Positions 1 to 14,376 of a stretch of 35,626 nt of DNA are shown piece by piece; positions within the stretch are counted from its first letter, which is position 1; each line of letters opens with the position of its first letter. The position numbers and the translations under genes are program-made. This stretch comes from a virus, in the IMG/VR virus record IMGVR_UViG_3300020451_002774, positions 1 to 35,626 of that record. The stretch is one strand, 5' to 3'. The notes under the pieces are model-generated. The model was not told the origin of the DNA and searched no databases. It saw nothing but the letters and a program-made list of their open reading frames with translations.

Positions 1-1584
1 CTAGTCAAGTCGATTGACTTGCCCCTTTCTTCCCCACACTCGCCACATGTCGGCTTGCTGATCCTCCGTGCGGTACTGGTGGCCTCTGAACGGTGGGTTG
101 CCGAACAGGTAGGAGCATTCGGCCGGGGGAAGAATGTCCGACCAGTCCATCTCAAGGGCGTTGCCGACAACGATGTGCGGCGCCTTTCTGAGCGGGATGC
201 GCGAGTAATATGGGCCGAACTCAAGGCTGAGCCGATTGTTCATGATGTGATCCATCATCCACATCGCAGTTTCGGCAATCCGCCCAGCGAACTCACCAAT
301 TTCTATGCCGTAGAACTGGTCGACATTGACCCGTGAAAGATCAGAAACGTCCAATGGTGCGTTGAACTGACCAAAAGAATCCCTCTGGTAGTCGATTAGC
401 TCGCGCACGATTTCAATTTCTAGAATGCGCAGCTCTCGATAGGCAATGATGAGAAAGTTGCCGCAGCCGCATGCGGGGTCCAAAAAACGAAGTGAGCCCA
501 GGCGCTCTCTGAATTTTTCGAGTTCAGTTTTTCGCCGGGTGTCCCTCATGCTGCGGGACTTTAGGCGCTCGAACTCTTCCCATAGACCATCGAGGAAGAG
601 TGGCTGGATAGTCTTCAGGATATTCGTTTCGTTGGTGTAGTGCGCGCCCATCTGTCGCCGCTCGTCACGGTTCATGACGGATTGGAAAAGGCTGCCGAAG
701 ATAGCGGGCGATATTTCCGACCAATCGAACCGACAGGCGTCAAGCAACCTATCTCGCATCTCGGTATTGAACGACGGCAGACGAAGGGTTTCCTTAAACA
801 GAGCGCCGTTAACATATGGGAAAGCGTCCAGATCCTCGTCTAGGGTCTTCGGCCGGGTCGGGCCCTTCTCTGTGTCAAGCGTTTGAAAGAGCTGGGCGAT
901 CCATCCCCCAAGGTCTGATCCGTCCGGATTTGTGCGTCGTTCGATCAGGTCCTCGAAAATACCTCTGGCGAAGATGCCTGTGTCGTCAGCGAAGAGGCAG
1001 AATACAATTCTGACCAGGAAACGTTCAAGGTCATGCCCCGTGTAGCCGGAGTCTTCTAGGGCGTCGTGCAGTGCGCCAACCAGCTCGGCAGCATCGATGT
1101 TCACCGGATCTTGATCCTTGAACGTTTTCTTCTCGACACCGGTGATGAAGCCGAATTTGTGTGCGTGCTTCGCAAATTCCTCCAAAGGAAATTTGAGTTC
1201 GCCTTCCTCCCCGTCGGCAGCTTCTAGATCGTAGAGCTCAAAGGTTTGGAAGTCGCTCAACAAAACATATCTTGGGAGGTCCTCGTCTTTGAGACTTGGA
1301 AAGTAGTCCAGAGCTTGCGTCTTAGCCTTGATAAGGCTTTGGCCCATACTCTTCTGCTCCACGAGCAATTTGCCCTTCCAGAACAGGTCAATGAAGCCGC
1401 GTTTGCTGGTGTCGGCGTGTTTGACCGGTTCTTCAAAAGTCGCCACTCTCTTAATCGGGACTCCGAAGACTTCGAAGAATTCTCGATAGAAGAGTTGGGT
1501 CTGCCCCTTCTCATATCCTTGGCCGGCCCATTCCCTAGCGAAGCTCGCCGCTCGGGACCGAATTTCATTTGGAGACAAGGGCAT
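1..1584 (-). CDS. MmeI-like restriction-modification enzyme, N-terminal 527 residues, truncated
   Basis: Resembles type IIL/IIG single-chain enzymes that cut and methylate DNA. An N-terminal nuclease signature is visible as D66, E76 and K78 (D-x9-E-x-K, the spacing known for MmeI). A helical spacer follows, then methyltransferase motif X (GAHYT, 313-317), the SAM-binding motif I (DPACGCGNF, 369-377) and the catalytic motif NPPF (496-499). Family members run to about 900 residues and continue after a conserved LDY with the rest of the catalytic domain and the target-recognition domain. Here the reading ends ...NRLD and then TAG at bases 3-1, where Tyr is expected. As it stands the protein has nuclease residues but no DNA-recognition domain, so it is probably inactive or a pseudogene. 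It may be cargo at the prophage edge or host DNA just outside. The family assignment is firm; the cause of truncation lies outside the window. Confidence 0.85.
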   Translation of the reverse strand: MPLSPNEIRSRAASFAREWAGQGYEKGQTQLFYREFFEVFGVPIKRVATFEEPVKHADTSKRGFIDLFWKGKLLVEQKSMGQSLIKAKTQALDYFPSLKDEDLPRYVLLSDFQTFELYDLEAADGEEGELKFPLEEFAKHAHKFGFITGVEKKTFKDQDPVNIDAAELVGALHDALEDSGYTGHDLERFLVRIVFCLFADDTGIFARGIFEDLIERRTNPDGSDLGGWIAQLFQTLDTEKGPTRPKTLDEDLDAFPYVNGALFKETLRLPSFNTEMRDRLLDACRFDWSEISPAIFGSLFQSVMNRDERRQMGAHYTNETNILKTIQPLFLDGLWEEFERLKSRSMRDTRRKTELEKFRERLGSLRFLDPACGCGNFLIIAYRELRILEIEIVRELIDYQRDSFGQFNAPLDVSDLSRVNVDQFYGIEIGEFAGRIAETAMWMMDHIMNNRLSLEFGPYYSRIPLRKAPHIVVGNALEMDWSDILPPAECSYLFGNPPFRGHQYRTEDQQADMWRVWGRKGQVNRLD

Positions 1585-6124: not shown

Positions 6125-6861
6125 CCGAGTTACGTGTTCTTGTCGGCTGCGAAACTTCCGGCGTGGTGCGTCGTGCCTTTGCCTCGCGCGGGCATGATGT
6201 CTGGTCGTGTGATCTTCTGCCGGCCGAAGATGGCAGCAACCGGCATATTGTCTGCGATGTCCGCGACATTCTCGATGACGGTTGGGATTTGCTGGCCGTG
6301 ATGCATCCGCCATGCACGCGGCTCTGCAACAGCGGCGTGCGCTGGCTCTCAGGCCCGCCGAAGAATGCACCGAACGAGGCTCTCCCTGCGGAGAAGCAGG
6401 CGTGGCCGGTTCTTTCCGTTGCCGATCGCTCGGCCATCATGTGGCGTTTGCTGGACGAAGGCGCGGCGCTGTTTTCTGCCTGCTGGAATGCGCCGATTGA
6501 CCGGGTGGCCATTGAAAACCCGGTGATGCACCGGCATGCCAAAGAGCGGATCGTCAACTACCAGAAGCCGGCCCAGACCGTGCAGCCATGGTGGTTTGGC
6601 GATCGCGCTTTCAAGGCGACCTCACTTTACCTGCGGGGCCTGCCAGCCTTGACTGAAACAGAGCGGCTTCTGCCACCCAATGCGGGCACGGATGAACACA
6701 AGACATGGTCGATCGTGCATCGGGCCTCGCCGGGACCTGACCGCGGGCAGCTCAGATCACGAACATATCCGGGCATTGCCAACGCAATGGCGGATCAATG
6801 GGGCGGTGCGGCCCTGGCAGCTTCTGAGGCCCTTGGTGATGTGCTGGAGGTGGCCTCATGA
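6121..6861 (+). CDS. Phage cytosine-C5 DNA methyltransferase-like protein
   Basis: A 246-residue protein with a minimal C5-methyltransferase layout. A SAM-binding N-terminus (VLVGCETSGVVRRAFASRGH) is followed by a PPC motif (63-65, C65 the expected nucleophile, in HPPCTRLCNSG) and an ENP motif (132-134), the counterpart of the ENV motif VI. A conserved QPWWFGDRAFKAT stretch follows near 155. It is shorter than bacterial Dcm-type enzymes and has no distinct target-recognition domain. Phages use such enzymes to hide their DNA from host restriction; related proteins in prophages are often annotated only as methyltransferases. It is coupled to the zinc-ribbon gene. Whether it is catalytically active is not shown by the sequence. 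Confidence 0.75.
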   Translation: MTELRVLVGCETSGVVRRAFASRGHDVWSCDLLPAEDGSNRHIVCDVRDILDDGWDLLAVMHPPCTRLCNSGVRWLSGPPKNAPNEALPAEKQAWPVLSVADRSAIMWRLLDEGAALFSACWNAPIDRVAIENPVMHRHAKERIVNYQKPAQTVQPWWFGDRAFKATSLYLRGLPALTETERLLPPNAGTDEHKTWSIVHRASPGPDRGQLRSRTYPGIANAMADQWGGAALAASEALGDVLEVAS

Positions 6862-6875
6862 GCGAGGATCAGCGT

Positions 6876-7226
6876 TTACACAAGGTCATCAATATCGACA
6901 TCGAGGGCAGCGGCGAGCGCCTTTATGGCCGATATCGAGCCATCTGCCTTGCCGTTTTCGATATCCGACAGATAGGGCTGGGAAATGCCGGCCTTTTCTG
7001 CCAGCGCCTTCATGGTCAGGCCTCGGTATTTGCGCCACACGCGCAGCCGGCTTTGGCTTTCATCGGAGAGCGCGACCATGAGTTCGTGCGGATAGGTCTC
7101 TTCTCCGGCTTCCACGCCGGCCATGACCGCGCGGGCGTGCAGGCTGTCGATCATGTCATCGTAATCGGCTTCGCGCAGGAGCACGTAATTCTTGCCTTCT
7201 ATGGTGATTTTCTGAACTTCGCCCAT
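6876..7226 (-). CDS. XRE-type antitoxin of a toxin-antitoxin pair
   Basis: A 116-residue protein with two parts. The N-terminal region (1-40, IEGKNYVLLREADYDDMIDSL) looks like a small neutralising domain, and the C-terminal part (about 65-113) is an XRE helix-turn-helix (MKALAEKAGISQPYLSDIENG). It starts six bases after the toxin stop and has AGGA upstream. In such modules it binds the toxin and, with it, represses their shared promoter. The gene lies on the opposite strand to the surrounding early operon and is transcribed after the toxin, the order found in HigBA-type modules. Confidence 0.85.
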   Translation of the reverse strand: MGEVQKITIEGKNYVLLREADYDDMIDSLHARAVMAGVEAGEETYPHELMVALSDESQSRLRVWRKYRGLTMKALAEKAGISQPYLSDIENGKADGSISAIKALAAALDVDIDDLV

Positions 7227-7232
7227 GGCATG

Positions 7233-7478
7233 TCAATCCTTGTAAATGCCGCCGCGCGGCCCTGCATCGATGATCATGACGACCAGGCCCTGATCATCAA
7301 GAATGATACGGTCGGAACCGACGCGGATGCGAAAATAGGGGCTGCCCTGCAGCTTCTTCAAATCGACCGTTTCACCCGACGCGTAAGCTTCGATCCTGGC
7401 AATGATTGCGTTGCGGCGCTTTGGTTGCATGCGCTGAATGCTCTTCATCGCGACCTTGGTGTAACGGATCGTCTTCAT
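7233..7478 (-). CDS. RelE/ParE-superfamily toxin
   Basis: An 81-residue toxin of the RelE/ParE fold, which acts on ribosome-bound mRNA (RelE/HigB) or on gyrase (ParE). Features are a basic N-terminal helix pair (KVAMKSIQRMQPKRRNAI), the KKLQGSPYFRIRVGSDRIIL core with FRIRVGSDRII as the signature strand, and a C-terminal MIIDAGPRGGIY. The ATG at 7478 is preferred; a longer in-frame ORF would run through the promoter and into the next gene. It is first in the pair, followed by the XRE-type antitoxin. The catalytic residues do not by themselves separate RelE from ParE targets. Confidence 0.85.
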   Translation of the reverse strand: MKTIRYTKVAMKSIQRMQPKRRNAIIARIEAYASGETVDLKKLQGSPYFRIRVGSDRIILDDQGLVVMIIDAGPRGGIYKD

Positions 7479-7481
7479 GTA

Positions 7482-7513
7482 CTCAATATAGCTATAGGCG
7501 ATATTGAGCGCAA
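7482..7513 (-). promoter_or_regulatory. Promoter and operator of the toxin-antitoxin module
   Basis: On the minus strand TTGCGC (7508-7513) and TATATT (7485-7490) are separated by 17 bp, a good sigma70-type pair that starts just upstream of the toxin ATG. The perfect inverted repeat CTCAATAT/ATATTGAG (7482-7489 and 7501-7508, 11-bp spacer) covers the -10 and touches the -35, as expected for autoregulation by the toxin-antitoxin complex. On the plus strand TATAAT at 7533-7538 might serve the next rightward gene, but no good -35 accompanies it. Confidence 0.7.
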
Positions 7514-7567
7514 GATTGAAATCGTATTTTGCTATAATTTTATGCCTAGATTCATGGAGGATTTGCC

Positions 7568-8401
7568 ATGAGCGAGATGCCATATGTGCGGTTCTATATG
7601 TCCGATTGGCTTTCTGCCACGCGCGGCATGAAGGCGGCGGAAATGGGTGTTTATTTTACTCTGCTGGCGCTGATGTATGAACGCGGCGAGCCGCTGAGCG
7701 AGAACCACGAGCGGCTGGCGCGGCAGTGCGGCTGCACGAAAAAGGTGTTCTCCCAATACCTCGATGTGTTCCTCGATGACGGGAAAATCATCCGTTCCGA
7801 GGGCGGTCTCTGGAACCGCCGCGTGGAAAAAGAATTTCAATTTCGCGAAAAAAGTTCTGAAGACAAAAAACAGGCCGCAAAAAAACGCTGGAAAAAAGGC
7901 AATGAAAACAATGAAGCGAGCATGCAGGTGCATAGCACATGCAATGCAGCTGCAATGCTAAAGCCAGAAGCCAGAGTTAAGAAAGAAAGTGTTCCTAAAG
8001 GAACACAAAAGAAATCGCCCCGATCGGTTCTCTGCGACGTGCTTTCGCCGGAGGTTGCCGATGCCGTCATCGAACATCGCAAAGCGCTGCGGAAGAACCT
8101 GACCGTCCGGGCAGCCGAACTGCTCGCACGGCGGTTTGCGCTGATGCCGGATCCGGATGCTGCGGCGGAAACCATGATCGGTCGCGGTTGGCAGGGTTTC
8201 GAGCCCGGCTGGATGCAGGAGCGCCAGCAGGGTGGCGCCCGGGCTTCGCCCGCCAAGCCTTCACGCGGCGACGAAATCAGGGATCACAATCAGCGCGTTC
8301 GGGACAGTTTGCGCAAACGGATGGGACAGGACGATGGCAGCGAAGATGGCAAAATTATCGACATCAGCCGGGGAGATTGGAAGGTTGCGCAAGGCTCTTG
8401 A
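7568..8401 (+). CDS. DUF1376-family phage replication-type protein
   Basis: A 277-residue protein. Its N-terminal 100 residues (YVRFYMSDWLSATRGM, then a stretch around YFTLLALMYERGEPLS) match DUF1376 (YdaU-type), a winged-helix-like domain found in phage replication initiators. A Lys-rich, AT-rich linker with several A-runs follows (near 7845-7915), then a helical C-terminal domain. It has a strong GGAGG ribosome binding site. In related phages the gene sits before helicase-loader-like genes and is believed to act at the phage origin. No origin repeats were identified. The preceding GGAGG-N7-ATGAGCGAG also occurs at the far end of the toxin-antitoxin module. Confidence 0.8.
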   Translation: MSEMPYVRFYMSDWLSATRGMKAAEMGVYFTLLALMYERGEPLSENHERLARQCGCTKKVFSQYLDVFLDDGKIIRSEGGLWNRRVEKEFQFREKSSEDKKQAAKKRWKKGNENNEASMQVHSTCNAAAMLKPEARVKKESVPKGTQKKSPRSVLCDVLSPEVADAVIEHRKALRKNLTVRAAELLARRFALMPDPDAAAETMIGRGWQGFEPGWMQERQQGGARASPAKPSRGDEIRDHNQRVRDSLRKRMGQDDGSEDGKIIDISRGDWKVAQGS

Positions 8402-8831
8402 GCCGGCAAACGAACGGCAGTCCGATCTCATGCTTGATGCGTTGATGGACCGTGGATTTGCTATCCCCGACAGCGTCAACGCCGAGAAGGCCGGTCAGTT
8501 CTACGCCGAAGCGATGCGGGGCAAGCCGATCGGTGCGCTTCGCCGGGTATTCGAGAACCTGCGGCTTGGCCGATACCCGAAATTCCAGTCGTTCCTGCCT
8601 AAGCCCGCAGAGCTTTCGGCGCTTGTCGATGCGGCTGCGAAGCATGACAGGGAGCTGCTGCGGATTGAACACGAACATGCGGAAGCCGCAAAAGAGCGGG
8701 AGGAGGAGAGGAGCCGGCGCGAGATCGGGCCGGAGGAGCGCGAGCGCCGCCGACGGAAGGCTGCTGCCGTGCGGGCGATGCTGGGCACGGCCGCGAAGGC
8801 GCGAACCCTGAGTGGAGGCTTCGATGACTGA
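8334..8831 (+). CDS. Hypothetical early protein, possible replication accessory
   Basis: A 165-residue protein chosen from ATG 8334 (AGGA upstream; ATG 8346 is an alternative), overlapping the end of the DUF1376 gene by 68 bases. The centre contains a run like that of phage replication-associated proteins (RRVFENLRLGRYPKFQSFLP near 70-90). A long, very charged coiled coil (about 105-145, Glu/Arg-rich) follows. Position directly after a replication-type gene suggests a helicase-loader or accessory role, but no ATP-binding motif is present, so this is inference. It overlaps the next gene by eight bases. Confidence 0.65.
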   Translation: MAAKMAKLSTSAGEIGRLRKALEPANERQSDLMLDALMDRGFAIPDSVNAEKAGQFYAEAMRGKPIGALRRVFENLRLGRYPKFQSFLPKPAELSALVDAAAKHDRELLRIEHEHAEAAKEREEERSRREIGPEERERRRRKAAAVRAMLGTAAKARTLSGGFDD

Positions 8832-9555
8832 GACCGAGAACCGCAAGGCCGTGCGCCGTGCCTTTCTGAAATTCTACCGGCAATGGCCGACCTTTGGCGA
8901 TGACAGTGACGAACGGGCCTTTGCCGAATGGCAGGCGCTGAAGCCGGCGGAGCGACAAGGGGCCGACGCCATGCTACCGGCTTTTCTGGCGTTCGAAGCC
9001 ATGAACGGGCGGACGGTGAAGTTTGCGGCAAGCACCTATCTGCGCGAAAGGCGCTGGACGGCTGTTCCGGAAGGCGCGGAAGGCTCTTCCGGGCCGGTGA
9101 TTGCTGCGACCTTCGGCAAGGCATGGATGGCGGAGCGCTTTGCCAGGCTTTGTGAGCCGTGTGCGCGGCTGCCTGCCTTGACGCGGTTTCAGGAGCTGGA
9201 AATTGCGGAAGGGCGGGCAGACCGCAAGGCGCTGTGGCGCGAGCGGATGTGCAAGATGGGCTGGCCAGCCGTGAACGCTATGAACGATCAGGCCGCTCGC
9301 TATCCCGGCAAGGGCACCCGAGTTTCCGGTGAAATCGCGTTGCTTGGAGCTGACTTCGAGGCGGTGCGGGTTGGTGGCGATCTGTGGGCTGCCTGGGAGG
9401 CGGAGCATAGCGCACGCGGATGGCCATGGCTGCCGGAAATGGGGCGGGTGGAATGGGTCTACTTTCCGCCTCTTGGTGCTGGAACGCCGGGCGAGGCGCT
9501 GACGGCGTTCTTCGACAAACTGCACAGGACGAAACAGCTGGAGGCGGCTCAATGA
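8824..9555 (+). CDS. Hypothetical protein before the NusG-like gene
   Basis: A 243-residue soluble protein of unknown family, rich in Ala, Glu and Trp, beginning at ATG 8824 with GGAGG upstream. The N-terminus has a basic helix and an aromatic patch (FLKFYRQWPTF), the middle is helical with a Cys pair (LCEPCARLP), and the C-terminus ends FDKLHRTKQLEAAQ. No membrane segment and no nucleotide-binding motif. Its stop overlaps the NusG-like start (ATGA), so the two are translated together. That coupling is the best clue to its role: it may be an early regulatory or replication factor. Confidence 0.65.
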   Translation: MTETENRKAVRRAFLKFYRQWPTFGDDSDERAFAEWQALKPAERQGADAMLPAFLAFEAMNGRTVKFAASTYLRERRWTAVPEGAEGSSGPVIAATFGKAWMAERFARLCEPCARLPALTRFQELEIAEGRADRKALWRERMCKMGWPAVNAMNDQAARYPGKGTRVSGEIALLGADFEAVRVGGDLWAAWEAEHSARGWPWLPEMGRVEWVYFPPLGAGTPGEALTAFFDKLHRTKQLEAAQ

Positions 9556-10187
9556 CAGAGTATCGGAAGATCGGAGCTTCGGTCGATCTGGCCTATGGCC
9601 TGAAATTTGAGGACCGGCTGCGGTTGATCCGCCTTTCCGGGCGGTCAGCGCTGGCGGAAAAGGCTGCGGAGGATGCGCCGTGGTATGTGTTGCAGGTGAT
9701 GACCGGCCGGGAGCCGGTCGTTTGCGAAGCGCTGACGGAATGCGGGGCCGAGGCGCTTTCGCCGATGCGGAAGGGGCCGAAGCGCCGCCGTCGGCACAAG
9801 GTTTTGCCGCCGCAGGATATCCCGCTGATAGCCGGCTATGTGATGGTTCGGTTTGCCTGGTCGGAGATGGCGGTGCATGCGCTGCTGGGGTTCGAGCATG
9901 TGCGCGGAATACTGGGCGGGTGGCTCAGCCCGTTCGCGCTGGAAAATGACAGAGTTGTCCGGATCATGCAGAAGTCCGGTGATGGTCGGTTCGACTGGGA
10001 GCGGGTCTCGAAGATCGTGGTTGTCGCTGGCGAGCGGGTGCGCATCGGCGAGGGAATGTTTGCGGGGCTTGAGGCCGAGGTGGTCACGCCCAACAGCAAG
10101 GGGAAGGGCGATGTTGTCGTCGAGGTCGATATGTTCGGGCAGAAAACGCCTGTGAATTTGCCTCTTGCAATTCTCGAAAAGTTATGA
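9552..10187 (+). CDS. NusG-like transcription antiterminator
   Basis: A 211-residue protein with an N-terminal NGN-type domain (about 44-140, starting WYVLQVMTGREP and running through IPLIAGYVMVRF) and a C-terminal KOW domain (about 158-182, GERVRIGEGMFAGLEAEVV). NusG and its paralogues (RfaH, LoaP) bind the RNA polymerase clamp and change pausing and termination. The first 40 residues are an extra basic segment, not usual in NusG. It is coupled to the preceding gene (ATGA). Within 180 bases downstream lies a factor-independent terminator, and then the structural genes, so it is a good candidate for the late-gene antiterminator that does the work of lambda Q. Activity is inferred. Confidence 0.85.
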   Translation: MTEYRKIGASVDLAYGLKFEDRLRLIRLSGRSALAEKAAEDAPWYVLQVMTGREPVVCEALTECGAEALSPMRKGPKRRRRHKVLPPQDIPLIAGYVMVRFAWSEMAVHALLGFEHVRGILGGWLSPFALENDRVVRIMQKSGDGRFDWERVSKIVVVAGERVRIGEGMFAGLEAEVVTPNSKGKGDVVVEVDMFGQKTPVNLPLAILEKL

Positions 10188-10360
10188 ATTTTATAGAGCC
10201 ATTGGTTGATTCGGTTCTCAGTGACCTTCGCTCTCGCGCCCGAACCCCGCCCTTACGATAGCCGATCGGCAGATGCGATTGAGGGCCAGTGCGTGAGCTA
10301 TGCCTTCTCCAAAAATTGAAAATGATGGTTTCTCGGCAGTATTGCGTTGCCTCTCGCCGC

Positions 10361-10390
10361 AGGCGGATCGTGAAAGCGGTCCGCCTTTTT
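10361..10390 (+). terminator. Factor-independent terminator before the late genes
   Basis: A perfect 7-bp stem AGGCGGA/TCCGCCT (10361-10367 and 10380-10386), with a 12-base loop, runs directly into a T-tract (10386-10390). It lies 173 bases after the NusG-like stop and 27 bases before the first late gene. It would stop early transcription unless polymerase is modified. The rest of the 10188-10417 gap shows no gene. A 32-codon frame from ATG 10300 spans the terminator, but it has only a distant GAGG and is probably chance. Confidence 0.75.
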
Positions 10391-10417
10391 GCGTTTAGGG
10401 CAAAGGGAAATTCCTCC

Positions 10418-11158
10418 ATGATCTCCGCCCATATCGACATCGACCTTTCGCGCTTCGAGGCGAAGCTGACATCTGCACAACGGCGGGAACTGCCGAAGGC
10501 GGAAGTGCTGGCGCTGAACTGGCTGGCCGATGACGGCATGCGGGCAGTGCGGGCGAAGATGAAGGTCGTGTTCGACCGGCCGACGGCGCGGGCCATTCGC
10601 GGGATCGTCTACGAAAAGGCGAGCGAGGCCAACCGGGTTTCGGCTGTGGTGGTTGGAGGATCTGGGCGCAAGGGCGGGCTGCCGGCCGCTGCCTACCTTG
10701 GCCCGGAAATCCATGGCGGGATGCGGCGGCACAAGTCATTCGAGGAGCAACTGGTCGGCCGGGGGCTTATGGCCCGAAACCACGTGGCTGTGCCAGCGGA
10801 TCGGACGCCGCTAGATCGATATGGCAACATGACGCAAGGGTTTCTCAACCGCGTGATGCGGGACTTGCAGATCGACTATCGCGGGGCAGGGGCAACGCGG
10901 GTTTCGAGCGGTTCGACGCGGCGCAAGCGCAAGGCCAAGCCCTATCAGTTCTTCGTTCCACAGGGCAGGGACGATCTGTTTCCCGGTGTCTGGTATTCGG
11001 GGCGCGGTGACCGGGAGTTCTATCCGGTGATCCTGTTTGTGAGGGCCACGTCCTATTCGGAGCGTCTGAAACTCAATGAGATTGTTTCCGAGCTTGTGCG
11101 CCAGAAGAAGGACCGAACGTTCTCGCGGGCATTCCGCAAGGCGTATGCAAACAGCTGA
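10418..11158 (+). CDS. Putative gpZ-like tail-completion protein
   Basis: A 246-residue basic protein from ATG 10418 (AAGGGAAA upstream). The opening pattern (beta-rich start, then FEAKLTSAQRRELPKAEVLALNWLA and a VFDRPTARAIRG stretch) and the later YGNMTQGFL, basic linker and FYPVILFVRATSY segment resemble phage proteins distantly related to lambda gpZ. These complete the tail so that it can join the head. In lambda the gene lies among the tail genes; here it is first in the late region, before the terminase. The alternative is an uncharacterised virion or packaging accessory protein. Assignment is by recollected family pattern and tentative. Confidence 0.5.
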   Translation: MISAHIDIDLSRFEAKLTSAQRRELPKAEVLALNWLADDGMRAVRAKMKVVFDRPTARAIRGIVYEKASEANRVSAVVVGGSGRKGGLPAAAYLGPEIHGGMRRHKSFEEQLVGRGLMARNHVAVPADRTPLDRYGNMTQGFLNRVMRDLQIDYRGAGATRVSSGSTRRKRKAKPYQFFVPQGRDDLFPGVWYSGRGDREFYPVILFVRATSYSERLKLNEIVSELVRQKKDRTFSRAFRKAYANS

Positions 11159-11547: not shown

Positions 11548-11641
11548 CGGGTATTTGGCACCGCGCGGGTTGGCCAGTCTGAGCCCGAAACAGAAGCCTA
11601 AAGTCCAAGCCTAAACTAAAGACAGGGTGAGTTTAGCCACC

Positions 11642-12304
11642 ATGGAAACCACGCCAGACAGCATGAGCAAGGCCGAGTTCGCGTCGTTGATCTCGGTCTC
11701 GGCGGGCCGTATCTCGCAATATCTGAGCGCGGGCCAGATCCATGGTCGGGCGATCGAGGGCGAGGGGCGGTTTGCCCGCATCCGCCCGGATGTCGCGATC
11801 GCTCAGTTGGGCCTCACCATCGATCCCTCCCAAGGGTTCGGCGCCAACGGAAAAGCCTCCACAGCATCATGGAACAGACAGGCTGATTTCCCGCGCGCCG
11901 GACGGCGGACGGGCGCGGCGGCGGAAGTGCCGCTGCGTCCGCTGCCCGTCGTAGACGACGAGGAGGACCTCGCCGAGCAGCTCGCCCGCGAGCGGCTGCA
12001 GCAGCAGAAGTACAAGACCGCCCAGATGGAGCGGCAGGAAAAAGCCGAGGAAGGGATTTACACCCGCACCGAGGATGTCCGCCGCGAGATCGGCCGGGCA
12101 TCCTCCGAGGCGTTCAAGGTGATGGAACAGGGGTTACCTGATCTCGCCGGCGCTCTCGCCGAGGTCTTCAACCTGCCGCAGCGCGATATCCTGAAGACGC
12201 TCACCCGCAAATGGCGGGACATCCGTGAACAGGCCGCCGTAACCTTCCGGGAACGTCGCGACGAGGAACCCGAGCTGATCATCGAAGAGACCGACACTGC
12301 ATGA
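11642..12304 (+). CDS. Small terminase subunit (Nu1-like)
   Basis: A 220-residue DNA-packaging protein. It begins with a winged-helix or MerR-like DNA-binding region (about 8-50, SKAEFASLISVSAGRISQYL), then has a polar linker and a long coiled-coil helix (about 110-145, EDLAEQLARERLQQQKYK) for oligomerisation. The C-terminus carries helices and an acidic end that could contact the large subunit. This is the Nu1-like plan; the protein binds the packaging site and recruits the large terminase. Starts at GTG 11627 and ATG 11642 are both possible. AGGGTG precedes the latter at 12 bases, so it is chosen. The stop overlaps the large subunit start (ATGA). Confidence 0.8.
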   Translation: METTPDSMSKAEFASLISVSAGRISQYLSAGQIHGRAIEGEGRFARIRPDVAIAQLGLTIDPSQGFGANGKASTASWNRQADFPRAGRRTGAAAEVPLRPLPVVDDEEDLAEQLARERLQQQKYKTAQMERQEKAEEGIYTRTEDVRREIGRASSEAFKVMEQGLPDLAGALAEVFNLPQRDILKTLTRKWRDIREQAAVTFRERRDEEPELIIEETDTA

Positions 12305-14376
12305 CCATGCTGTTTAATCCGGCGCAGCTGATGTTCGAAGCGCTGGCGAGTGCCTGCGAGCCGCCGCCGCCGGTCGACTATCTCGGCTGGGCGAAAAAGA
12401 ACATCGTGTTCTCCGAACGGATCTCGGCGTTTCCGGGTCCCTACCGCGAGGACATGTTCCCGTTCTTTTCGGAGATCCTGAGGGCGCTTTCACCGGACGA
12501 TCCGTGCTCGATCGTCTCGCTTGCCAAGTCCGCCCAGGTGGGCGGCACGGTGCTGGCGAATATCTTTCTGCTCGGCACGCTCGACCTCGACCCCTGCGAT
12601 TTCCTCTATGTCCATCCGACCGAGGAAAACGCCTCGCGCTGGTCGAAGACCAAGCTGATGCCACTCTTGCGGGAGACCGTTTCTGTCCGGGCGCTGTTTC
12701 CGGAAGCCGGCCGCGATGGCGGCAATTCGATCCTCTACAAGGAGAGGACAGACGGGCGCGGCGCCGTACAGGCGGCAGGCGCCAATTCCGCTGCTGGCCT
12801 GTCGATGATCTCGCCGCGCTCCCAGGTGCAGGATGACCTTGCGAAATGGGTCTATAACGACGCGGGTGATCCGGAAAGTCAGGCCGACAGCCGGTCGAAG
12901 GCGTTCTTCAACCGCAAGGTCTTCAAGATCTCGACGCCGCTGATCGCGCCCGGCTGCCGGATCACCGCCAATTATCTGGCCGGCACGCAGGAACGCTATC
13001 ATGTGCCGTGCCCGCACTGCCATGAGCTGCAGCCGCTCGAATGGGAGAACATGCGCGATCATCTCGATCCGCAGCACCCGGAGCTCGCGCACTTTGTCTG
13101 TGTCCATTGCGGCTGCGAGATCCGCGAGCATCATCGCCAGTGGATGGTGGACCCGGAGAACGGTGCGCGGTGGGTTGCCAAATATCCGGAACGGGCACGC
13201 TATCACCGCTCGTTCCATATCTGGGTGCCTTACTCGCCGCTCGAAAGCTGGGAGGCGATCGCGCGGGCGTGGCTGAAGGTCCAGTCCGGCGGCGCCGACG
13301 ACAAAGAAAAGGGCGCCGGCGCCGAACAGGTGTTCTTCAACGATACGCTCGGCCTTGCGTTTGAGGCCGACAACAAGGCGATCGCCTGGGAAGACCTGCG
13401 CGACCGTGCCGAGGAAACCGGCTTCCGGCGCGGCATTGTGCCGGCCGCAATGCTGGCGCTGACCATCGGTATCGACGTCCAGGGCGATCGTGTCGAATGG
13501 CTGCTCAGAGGCTGGGGCCGCAACAAGAGCAGCGCGGTCATCGATTATGGCGTGATCGACAGTCGGGCCGGCAGTCATCTGGCGGGCTATCGCGAGCATT
13601 CCGGCCATATCTCGGAAGCCGAGGTCATGGCAGCGCTTGACCGGCTGATCGTAAAACGCTGGCCGGATGAACATGGACGCTTGCGCGATGTCGACCGTGT
13701 CGCGATCGACGGCAATGCGTATACCGAGGATGTGTGGTTCTGGGCCCGGCGCCATCCGCGCTCGAAGGTGATCATGGTGCGCGGTGACAATCGCGATGCC
13801 GCCCCGCTCCTCAGCCATGTCCGCGAATATGACAAGCGCGGCAAACCGAAGAAACAGAAGTGGTCGACGCGGTTTTACAACTTCAATGCCTCGGTGATGA
13901 AGATGGGGCTCTATCGCGATTTCCGGAAGGATGATCCCGAACAGCCCGGCTTCATCAGCTTTGCCATCGGCCTTGGCGATGTCTTCTACCAGCAGGCGAC
14001 ATCCGAGGTGCGGGTCAAGGAAAAGGACCGCAACGGCTATCCCCGCTGGGTGTGGAAACTACCCGAAGGCCAGCGCAACGAAGTGCTCGACATGCTCAAC
14101 CAGTCGCGGGCGGCTGCCATCCGGCTTGGCGTTCCCTATTGGTCGGATGACGAATGGGGCGCGCGAGCCGAAGAACTCGCCCGGCAGGAACCGGAAGCGC
14201 AGGGCGATCTCGAAGACCTAATCGGCAATCTTGCTTTTGCGGTGAAGGCCGTCAGCGATGCCGGCAGAACGACCGCCGAACAGCCGTCGGCCGCGACGGC
14301 TTCACCGGTCTCCGACCGGGTCGCAGCGGCCATGCGCCGGGCGGAACGGGCCGCACAACGAACCCGGCCGGGCTAA
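12301..14376 (+). CDS. terL: Large terminase subunit (lambda gpA family)
   Basis: A 691-residue packaging motor and nuclease of the gpA family. The ATPase half has a phosphate-binding loop at about 74-86 (AKSAQVGGT, the gpA-type motif) and a Walker-B-like acidic patch near 175-180 (SQVQDDLAKW). Two CxxC pairs (CPHC and CVHC, about 236-268) form the zinc site seen in many gpA-like proteins. The C-terminal half starts the nuclease domain with TIGIDVQGDRVEW. It pumps DNA into the prohead and cuts at the packaging site. The gene is coupled to the small subunit by ATGA. Intact. It is followed by the gpW-like gene as in lambda. Confidence 0.97.
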   Translation: MTMLFNPAQLMFEALASACEPPPPVDYLGWAKKNIVFSERISAFPGPYREDMFPFFSEILRALSPDDPCSIVSLAKSAQVGGTVLANIFLLGTLDLDPCDFLYVHPTEENASRWSKTKLMPLLRETVSVRALFPEAGRDGGNSILYKERTDGRGAVQAAGANSAAGLSMISPRSQVQDDLAKWVYNDAGDPESQADSRSKAFFNRKVFKISTPLIAPGCRITANYLAGTQERYHVPCPHCHELQPLEWENMRDHLDPQHPELAHFVCVHCGCEIREHHRQWMVDPENGARWVAKYPERARYHRSFHIWVPYSPLESWEAIARAWLKVQSGGADDKEKGAGAEQVFFNDTLGLAFEADNKAIAWEDLRDRAEETGFRRGIVPAAMLALTIGIDVQGDRVEWLLRGWGRNKSSAVIDYGVIDSRAGSHLAGYREHSGHISEAEVMAALDRLIVKRWPDEHGRLRDVDRVAIDGNAYTEDVWFWARRHPRSKVIMVRGDNRDAAPLLSHVREYDKRGKPKKQKWSTRFYNFNASVMKMGLYRDFRKDDPEQPGFISFAIGLGDVFYQQATSEVRVKEKDRNGYPRWVWKLPEGQRNEVLDMLNQSRAAAIRLGVPYWSDDEWGARAEELARQEPEAQGDLEDLIGNLAFAVKAVSDAGRTTAEQPSAATASPVSDRVAAAMRRAERAAQRTRPG

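Follow-up and report, generated by a model that had tools for sequence, protein, structure and literature searches.

A phage-encoded NusG paralogue, a folded RNA and a terminator as a putative late-transcription switch in phages of root-nodule and crown-gall type bacteria

Between the early and the late genes of the prophage studied here stands a transcription terminator, which raises the question of how RNA polymerase reaches the late genes. The analysed window, a stretch of 35,626 nt (IMG/VR record IMGVR_UViG_3300020451_002774), is a prophage of a Martelella-type host with its nearest relatives in Martelella genomes and prophages. It carries an integrase gene at 1653-2747 on the minus strand and a lysozyme gene near 34-35 kb. 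An incomplete MmeI-type restriction-modification gene (4-1584, minus strand) adjoins the integrase gene and is probably located at or beyond the prophage end. The early genes lie on the plus strand with overlapping starts and stops, and the last of them encodes a NusG-like protein, whose start codon overlaps the stop codon of the directly preceding replication-initiation gene (8812-9555, plus strand) in an ATGA. Behind the terminator, a minor tail gene (10418-11158, plus strand; phrog_1924, E = 8e-56) is the first late gene. It is followed by the genes for the small (phrog_57) and then the large terminase (GpA type, phrog_15), which occupy 11627-14376 on the plus strand and start the packaging module.

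The NusG-like gene (ATG at 9552 to TGA at 10187, plus strand) encodes a protein of 211 aa. Residues 44-138 match the NusG family of Pfam (PF02357, E = 4e-13, above the cut-off), and the protein also matches the PHROGs family phrog_6386, annotated as 'transcription antiterminator' (E = 4e-37). An AlphaFold2 model (pLDDT 89.5) displays an N-terminal helical extension (helices at residues 7-14 and 19-35), an NGN domain and a KOW domain predicted as a beta-barrel, a type of model that can miss fold switching. The top Foldseek match of the model was a NusG chain (E = 8e-12) and the model grouped with NusG and RfaH, which were also its matches in the PDB. The phage protein belongs to the NusG/Spt5 superfamily (NGN and KOW). 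A preliminary description of this DNA had stated that an NGN-KOW protein of the NusG type closes the early operon, and this is borne out by the ORF, Pfam, PHROGs and AlphaFold2. Four Martelella genomes each contain a housekeeping NusG together with phage-type copies, and the phage paralogue shares 28.7% identity with the separate Martelella housekeeping protein. The protein is, hence, a divergent copy of the specialized type beside the housekeeping one; its putative role in the antitermination of a specific operon is suggested by anatomy and comparison. The same description had ascribed to it an extra, basic N-terminus of 40 residues. The extension is indeed present, but it is not markedly basic: its net charge of +2 equals the family median (range -3 to +7), and the strongly basic stretch RKGPKRRRRHK is located within the NGN domain and not at the N-terminus.

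The intrinsic terminator (10361-10390, plus strand) consists of an 11-bp stem, a 4-nt loop and a T tract. Its stem (10361-10386; 11 pairs, -19.6 kcal/mol), which is followed by a U-rich tail, lies 173 nt behind the nusG stop codon and is the strongest terminator-like site within 8-13 kb. The first late gene begins 31 nt after the stem. The terminator had previously been placed 173 bases past the gene and just before the first structural gene, and both statements were confirmed (stem at 10361-10386, phrog_1924 gene at 10418). Overlooked at that time was a conserved RNA element inside this correctly measured 173-nt gap.

In related Martelella prophages, about 115-125 nt behind nusG are strongly conserved, after which the sequences diverge fully, and this conservation persists where the NusG proteins are only 57-59% identical. 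A pattern derived from the conserved stretch was run over IMG/VR without reference to nusG and yielded at least 119 stretches. The covariance model R1 of the element core, built from 60 sequences, none of them from Martelella, has its sole match within the window at 10236-10302 (54 bits, E = 4e-13). Based on this model and on the conservation across homologues, we place a structured RNA element of about 100 nt, the putative loading site of the NusG paralogue, at about 10204-10302 on the plus strand, between the terminator and the nusG gene, from whose stop codon it is separated by 16 nt. The element is made up of a motif resembling GGATGA, of the long-range helix P1 and the stem P2, whose apical hairpin varies greatly, and of an AGTGC-GNRA-GCTATG that hardly varies at all. 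On the plus strand of the window, P1 is formed by TTCGG (10210-10214) and the complementary CCGAA (10240-10244), and P2 by the 7 pairs of GCCCTTA ... TTGAGGGC (10249-10286) with the apical hairpin AGCCGATCGGCA; the near-invariant mini-hairpin CAGTGC-GNRA-GCTATG (10287-10302) carries a GTGA loop. In the non-redundant alignment, the conserved 3' hairpin of the element is found 97-166 nt behind the nusG stop codon. No match to the element was obtained in Rfam 15, which was searched with the window and eight loci; two weak sub-threshold snoRNA matches, which one relative gave in a relaxed search, were considered chance. A small ORF of 32 codons (10300-10398, plus strand), which runs from the last ATG of the element through the terminator, is not conserved: across 103 loci its length ranges from 2 to 103 codons and is most often 3.

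The alignment of homologues strongly suggests that the element is selected as RNA. Within an alignment of 51 sequences, 98.6% of the cells in the named helices hold standard pairs, compared to 14-47% in a control in which the partner strand was slid by 1-3 columns. P1 is complementary in 51/51 sequences, and all of its pairs (5/5) exhibit double changes. It exists in 12 versions, such as GCTGA/TCAGC, TCCGA/TCGGA, TCTGC/GCAGA, TCCTA/TAGGA, GTTGA/TCAAC and the TTCGG/CCGAA of the window, and the NusG tree requires at least 17 changes between them. Such compensatory changes are expected for a selected RNA helix, but not for a DNA-binding or packaging site. For P2, 97.2% of the cells are paired, double changes occur at 3 of 7 pairs, and one edge pair is broken in 6/51 sequences; its inner hairpin is found in 51/60 cases versus 43% of shuffles. 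The loop of the conserved mini-hairpin is a GNRA tetraloop in 95/107 cases, the others being UACA, GAUA and similar, while UNCG occurs in none. A pseudoknot (ATAGC/GCTAT), spotted by eye in Martelella, is not retained in other phages.

The element and the NusG paralogue are found together from either side. Starting from the element, a NusG gene ends 92-161 nt upstream in 107/107 model-confirmed elements with upstream sequence in IMG/VR; a further 5 stretches are located on contigs cut too soon, and 7 are chance matches that lack both model support and a NusG gene. Starting from the protein, 42 loci were fetched with the NusG of a Nostoc phage as query, and the full element is present in 41/42, the last one being cut by the contig end. 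Published phages with the element are phi2LM21, phi3LM21, PPF1, Rivra and Nsp-JY10 (protein identity 27-42%). The pairing is kept in PPF1 and phi2LM21 at 27-29% protein identity and overall survives divergence to 22-30%. As a protein query against IMG/VR, the NusG of phi3LM21 gave no match, though phi3LM21 itself has the element, and two further divergent NusG queries resulted in only 4 additional loci. The exact pattern occurs in 12/298 genomes of the host's family, where NusG lies upstream of every matched site except one; a reversed-pattern control matched in 3 genomes. Among 398 genomes drawn across the phylum, only the Martelella genome yielded a true match. The covariance model with strict filters gave only 2 matches in 297 order-level genomes, and the exact pattern proved more informative. 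The co-inheritance of NusG and element could be due in part to their physical linkage.

Three loci of a second Martelella type (L183, L184 and L187) possess a related phage-type NusG and a terminator without this element. There, a 239-aa open frame is followed by GACGGGTGCTCCG and a strong terminator, and GACGGGTGCKCCG also precedes the terminator in L007, L008, L012 and others; GACGGGTGCTCCG/GACGGGTGCKCCG is possibly a different cis-element. Locus L014 (PP395642.1, Nostoc phage Nsp-JY10) bears a cyanobacterial host label together with a NusG and an element of the Rhizobiaceae phage type, and the Nostoc label may be wrong.

Across the loci, the terminator is conserved by position, not by sequence. 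Of the 66 non-redundant loci, 51 have a strict intrinsic terminator no more than 130 nt behind the element, versus 8/660 shuffles (1.2%), at a median gap of 15 nt and with 38 different terminator sequences; in the other 15/66 loci the strict scan detected none within this distance. None of the 66 loci (0/66) has a terminator before or inside the element. The variety of the terminator sequences speaks against an RNA switch of the mutually exclusive kind. For the 54 loci whose terminator lies within 300 nt, the late ORF (taken as the first following ORF of 80 aa or more) begins at a median of 16 nt past the terminator stem and within 40 nt in 48/54. As this is usually too close for a promoter and a ribosome site, the late genes would have to be reached by polymerase that passes the terminator.

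Further genes can be inserted between the element and the late genes. Locus L002 harbors a 1.2-kb insert (6789-8012, minus strand) with a 407-aa reverse-strand ORF without PHROG match, and tRNA-Met genes are located just behind the element in L055 (682-758, minus strand) and L062 (1510-1586, minus strand). These inserts fit a lasting change of the polymerase rather than a local attenuator.

Taken together, we consider it likely that the phage encodes at this locus an antitermination switch that times itself and leads from early to late transcription, with binding, read-through and timing as its predicted parts. This is the best explanation of the conserved protein, the covarying fold, the fixed order, the near-universal pairing, the position of the terminator behind the element and the short gap to the late ORF, in which a promoter usually would not fit. 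Early transcription would pass through the gene of the NusG paralogue into the element, and without the protein RNA polymerase would halt at the terminator ahead of the late genes. Once accumulated, the NusG paralogue would associate with the elongating polymerase at the time when the folded element appears on the nascent RNA. Polymerase modified in this way would no longer stop at the terminator and would go on to transcribe the late genes. The housekeeping NusG of the host may be involved as well. With somewhat less assurance, we favor the view that the large structured RNA behind its own gene directly recruits the NusG paralogue, and that this cassette of one protein and one RNA controls the change from early to late genes and can be combined with unrelated late modules downstream. 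The core of the earlier proposal, a dedicated NusG-type late regulator at the early/late terminator, is strongly supported by comparison: the order recurs in dozens of diverse phages with the terminator position kept, and the late ORF is usually too near for its own promoter; the antitermination itself is the part that we infer.

Several other readings of the locus have to be weighed against such a switch. The conserved segment lies upstream of the terminase genes and might therefore serve in DNA packaging (as a cos site) or mark a recombination boundary. Large terminases of the GpA family, to which that of the window belongs, are known from cos phages. The large terminase behind the element is, however, of the phrog_9 type in 35 phages and of the phrog_15 (GpA) type in 33, and the two families are unrelated. 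On well-supported branches of the NusG tree, the terminase family switches at least 12 times with the NusG-element pair unbroken, and the distance between elements correlates with NusG distance (r = 0.70) but not with terminase type (r = 0.015). That terminases are swapped while the element follows NusG argues against a cos site; physical linkage alone would also hold element and NusG together, so the correlation weighs mainly against cos. In addition, the compensatory base-pair changes, the fixed place behind nusG and the inserted genes that can part the element from the terminase render this reading extremely improbable. Hardly more probable is that the terminator just ends the early operon, that the late genes have their own promoter and that the element is part of a 3'-UTR or affects mRNA stability. 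Terminators commonly close operons, and alphaproteobacterial promoters can be hard to see. Against this stand the short distances between stem and late ORF (at most 40 nt in 48/54 loci, 31 nt in the window), which leave too little space for a promoter and a ribosome site, and a scan of the plus strand for promoters of the sigma-70-like type, in which none was seen within 8-13 kb. Moreover, there is no reason why a stability element should always come with NusG.

The remaining two readings concern how the polymerase is modified. We regard it as very unlikely that a DNA signal loads the NusG paralogue and that the RNA fold mainly serves as a pause signal, even though RfaH binds a paused complex via a specific non-template DNA sequence (PMC12691694) and the near-invariant AGTGC-GNRA-GCTATG might work at the DNA level. 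Covariation of the helices extends over about 100 nt, much more than a transcription bubble spans, and 10188-10417 contains no copy of the ops element GGCGGTAGCGTG, even when 2 mismatches are allowed. Two-mismatch ops matches number 12 in the whole window and are scattered on both strands, whereas 100 shuffles gave 4.9 on average and never as many as 12; this excess is possibly due to codon usage. Alternatively, the element may antiterminate alone, with the NusG paralogue merely assisting or serving another purpose. The Bacillus EAR element antiterminates by itself. A long, strongly conserved fold of nascent RNA ahead of terminators would suit such an activity, as it does for the put RNA of HK022, which has about 70 nt and acts independently of any protein (PMC9378689). 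A protein-free element should, however, occur elsewhere too, whereas the NusG gene is missing from 0/107 of the model-confirmed elements with upstream sequence, and the pairing survives to 22-30% protein identity. We therefore judge an action of the RNA alone to be unlikely and retain the two-component switch.

Compared with known systems, the switch is best read as working more like LoaP, put or N-nut than like lambda Q. The preliminary description had likened the locus to lambda Q and tR', but this did not hold. Both have a proven or putative phage antiterminator with its gene just upstream and a terminator ahead of the late genes, and only this gene position matches: lambda Q is not NusG-like and loads via a DNA site at the promoter, whereas the site here appears to be part of the early transcript, as a structured RNA, and no late promoter of the sigma-70-like type is detectable. 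By layout and RNA hairpin, the closest working analogue would be LoaP, a NusG paralogue that overrides intrinsic terminators via an RNA hairpin (PMC12691694). LoaP and the dfn leader hairpin of Bacillus share with the phage cassette a NusG paralogue and a hairpin in the transcript upstream of an intrinsic terminator, and that LoaP also reads through later terminators counts as a further likeness. LoaP is chromosomal, serves antibiotic operons and uses a small UNCG hairpin, while the cassette has a phage gene, late phage genes as putative targets and a larger, multi-helix element with mostly GNRA loops. HK022 put likewise is a phage nascent RNA thought to modify the elongating polymerase; it lies near early promoters and works without a protein, whereas the element here goes with a NusG gene and lies where early genes give way to late ones. 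Lambda N and nut (boxA/boxB) would share with the cassette RNA-loaded antitermination, a GNRA-type hairpin and a self-made factor that extends the same transcript, but N is a small peptide unrelated to NusG, and the element region contains no boxA-like sequence, even when 1 mismatch is allowed. The NGN and KOW domains of the phage protein are also those of RfaH, which acts with ops, and of further specialized NusG paralogues (PMC7593976, PMC7819879); free RfaH, however, has a KOW domain in an alpha-hairpin state, in contrast to the predicted beta-barrel of the phage KOW. A study of NusG paralogues mentions prophage copies in passing only (PMC7593976). For phiLM21, annotation places a 'transcription antiterminator' at the end of the early region (PMC12429752); this PHROG 6386 gene, named from homology, agrees with that of the window in kind and position, and the papers that we found do not describe an RNA element, a mechanism or a terminator pairing. 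In the literature outside subscription papers and bioRxiv preprints, we found no description of the element or the system.

Thus, many phages of root-nodule and crown-gall type bacteria look like they carry a previously undescribed late switch composed of their own NusG, a folded RNA and a terminator. As little is known about the switching to late transcription in alphaproteobacterial temperate phages, the cassette offers a concrete and testable answer for a large group of Rhizobiaceae phages. The element adds a new family of structured RNA to those in Rfam 15, one whose protein partner is defined, and is useful for studying how RNA recruits NusG paralogues and how intrinsic terminators are overridden. 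The NusG-element pairing also provides a marker for the annotation of early/late boundaries, and the small cassette could serve as a portable read-through switch in alphaproteobacteria. If direct recruitment by the RNA is true, the cassette would represent a class of antitermination in which the part played by lambda Q or N falls to a protein of the NusG family.
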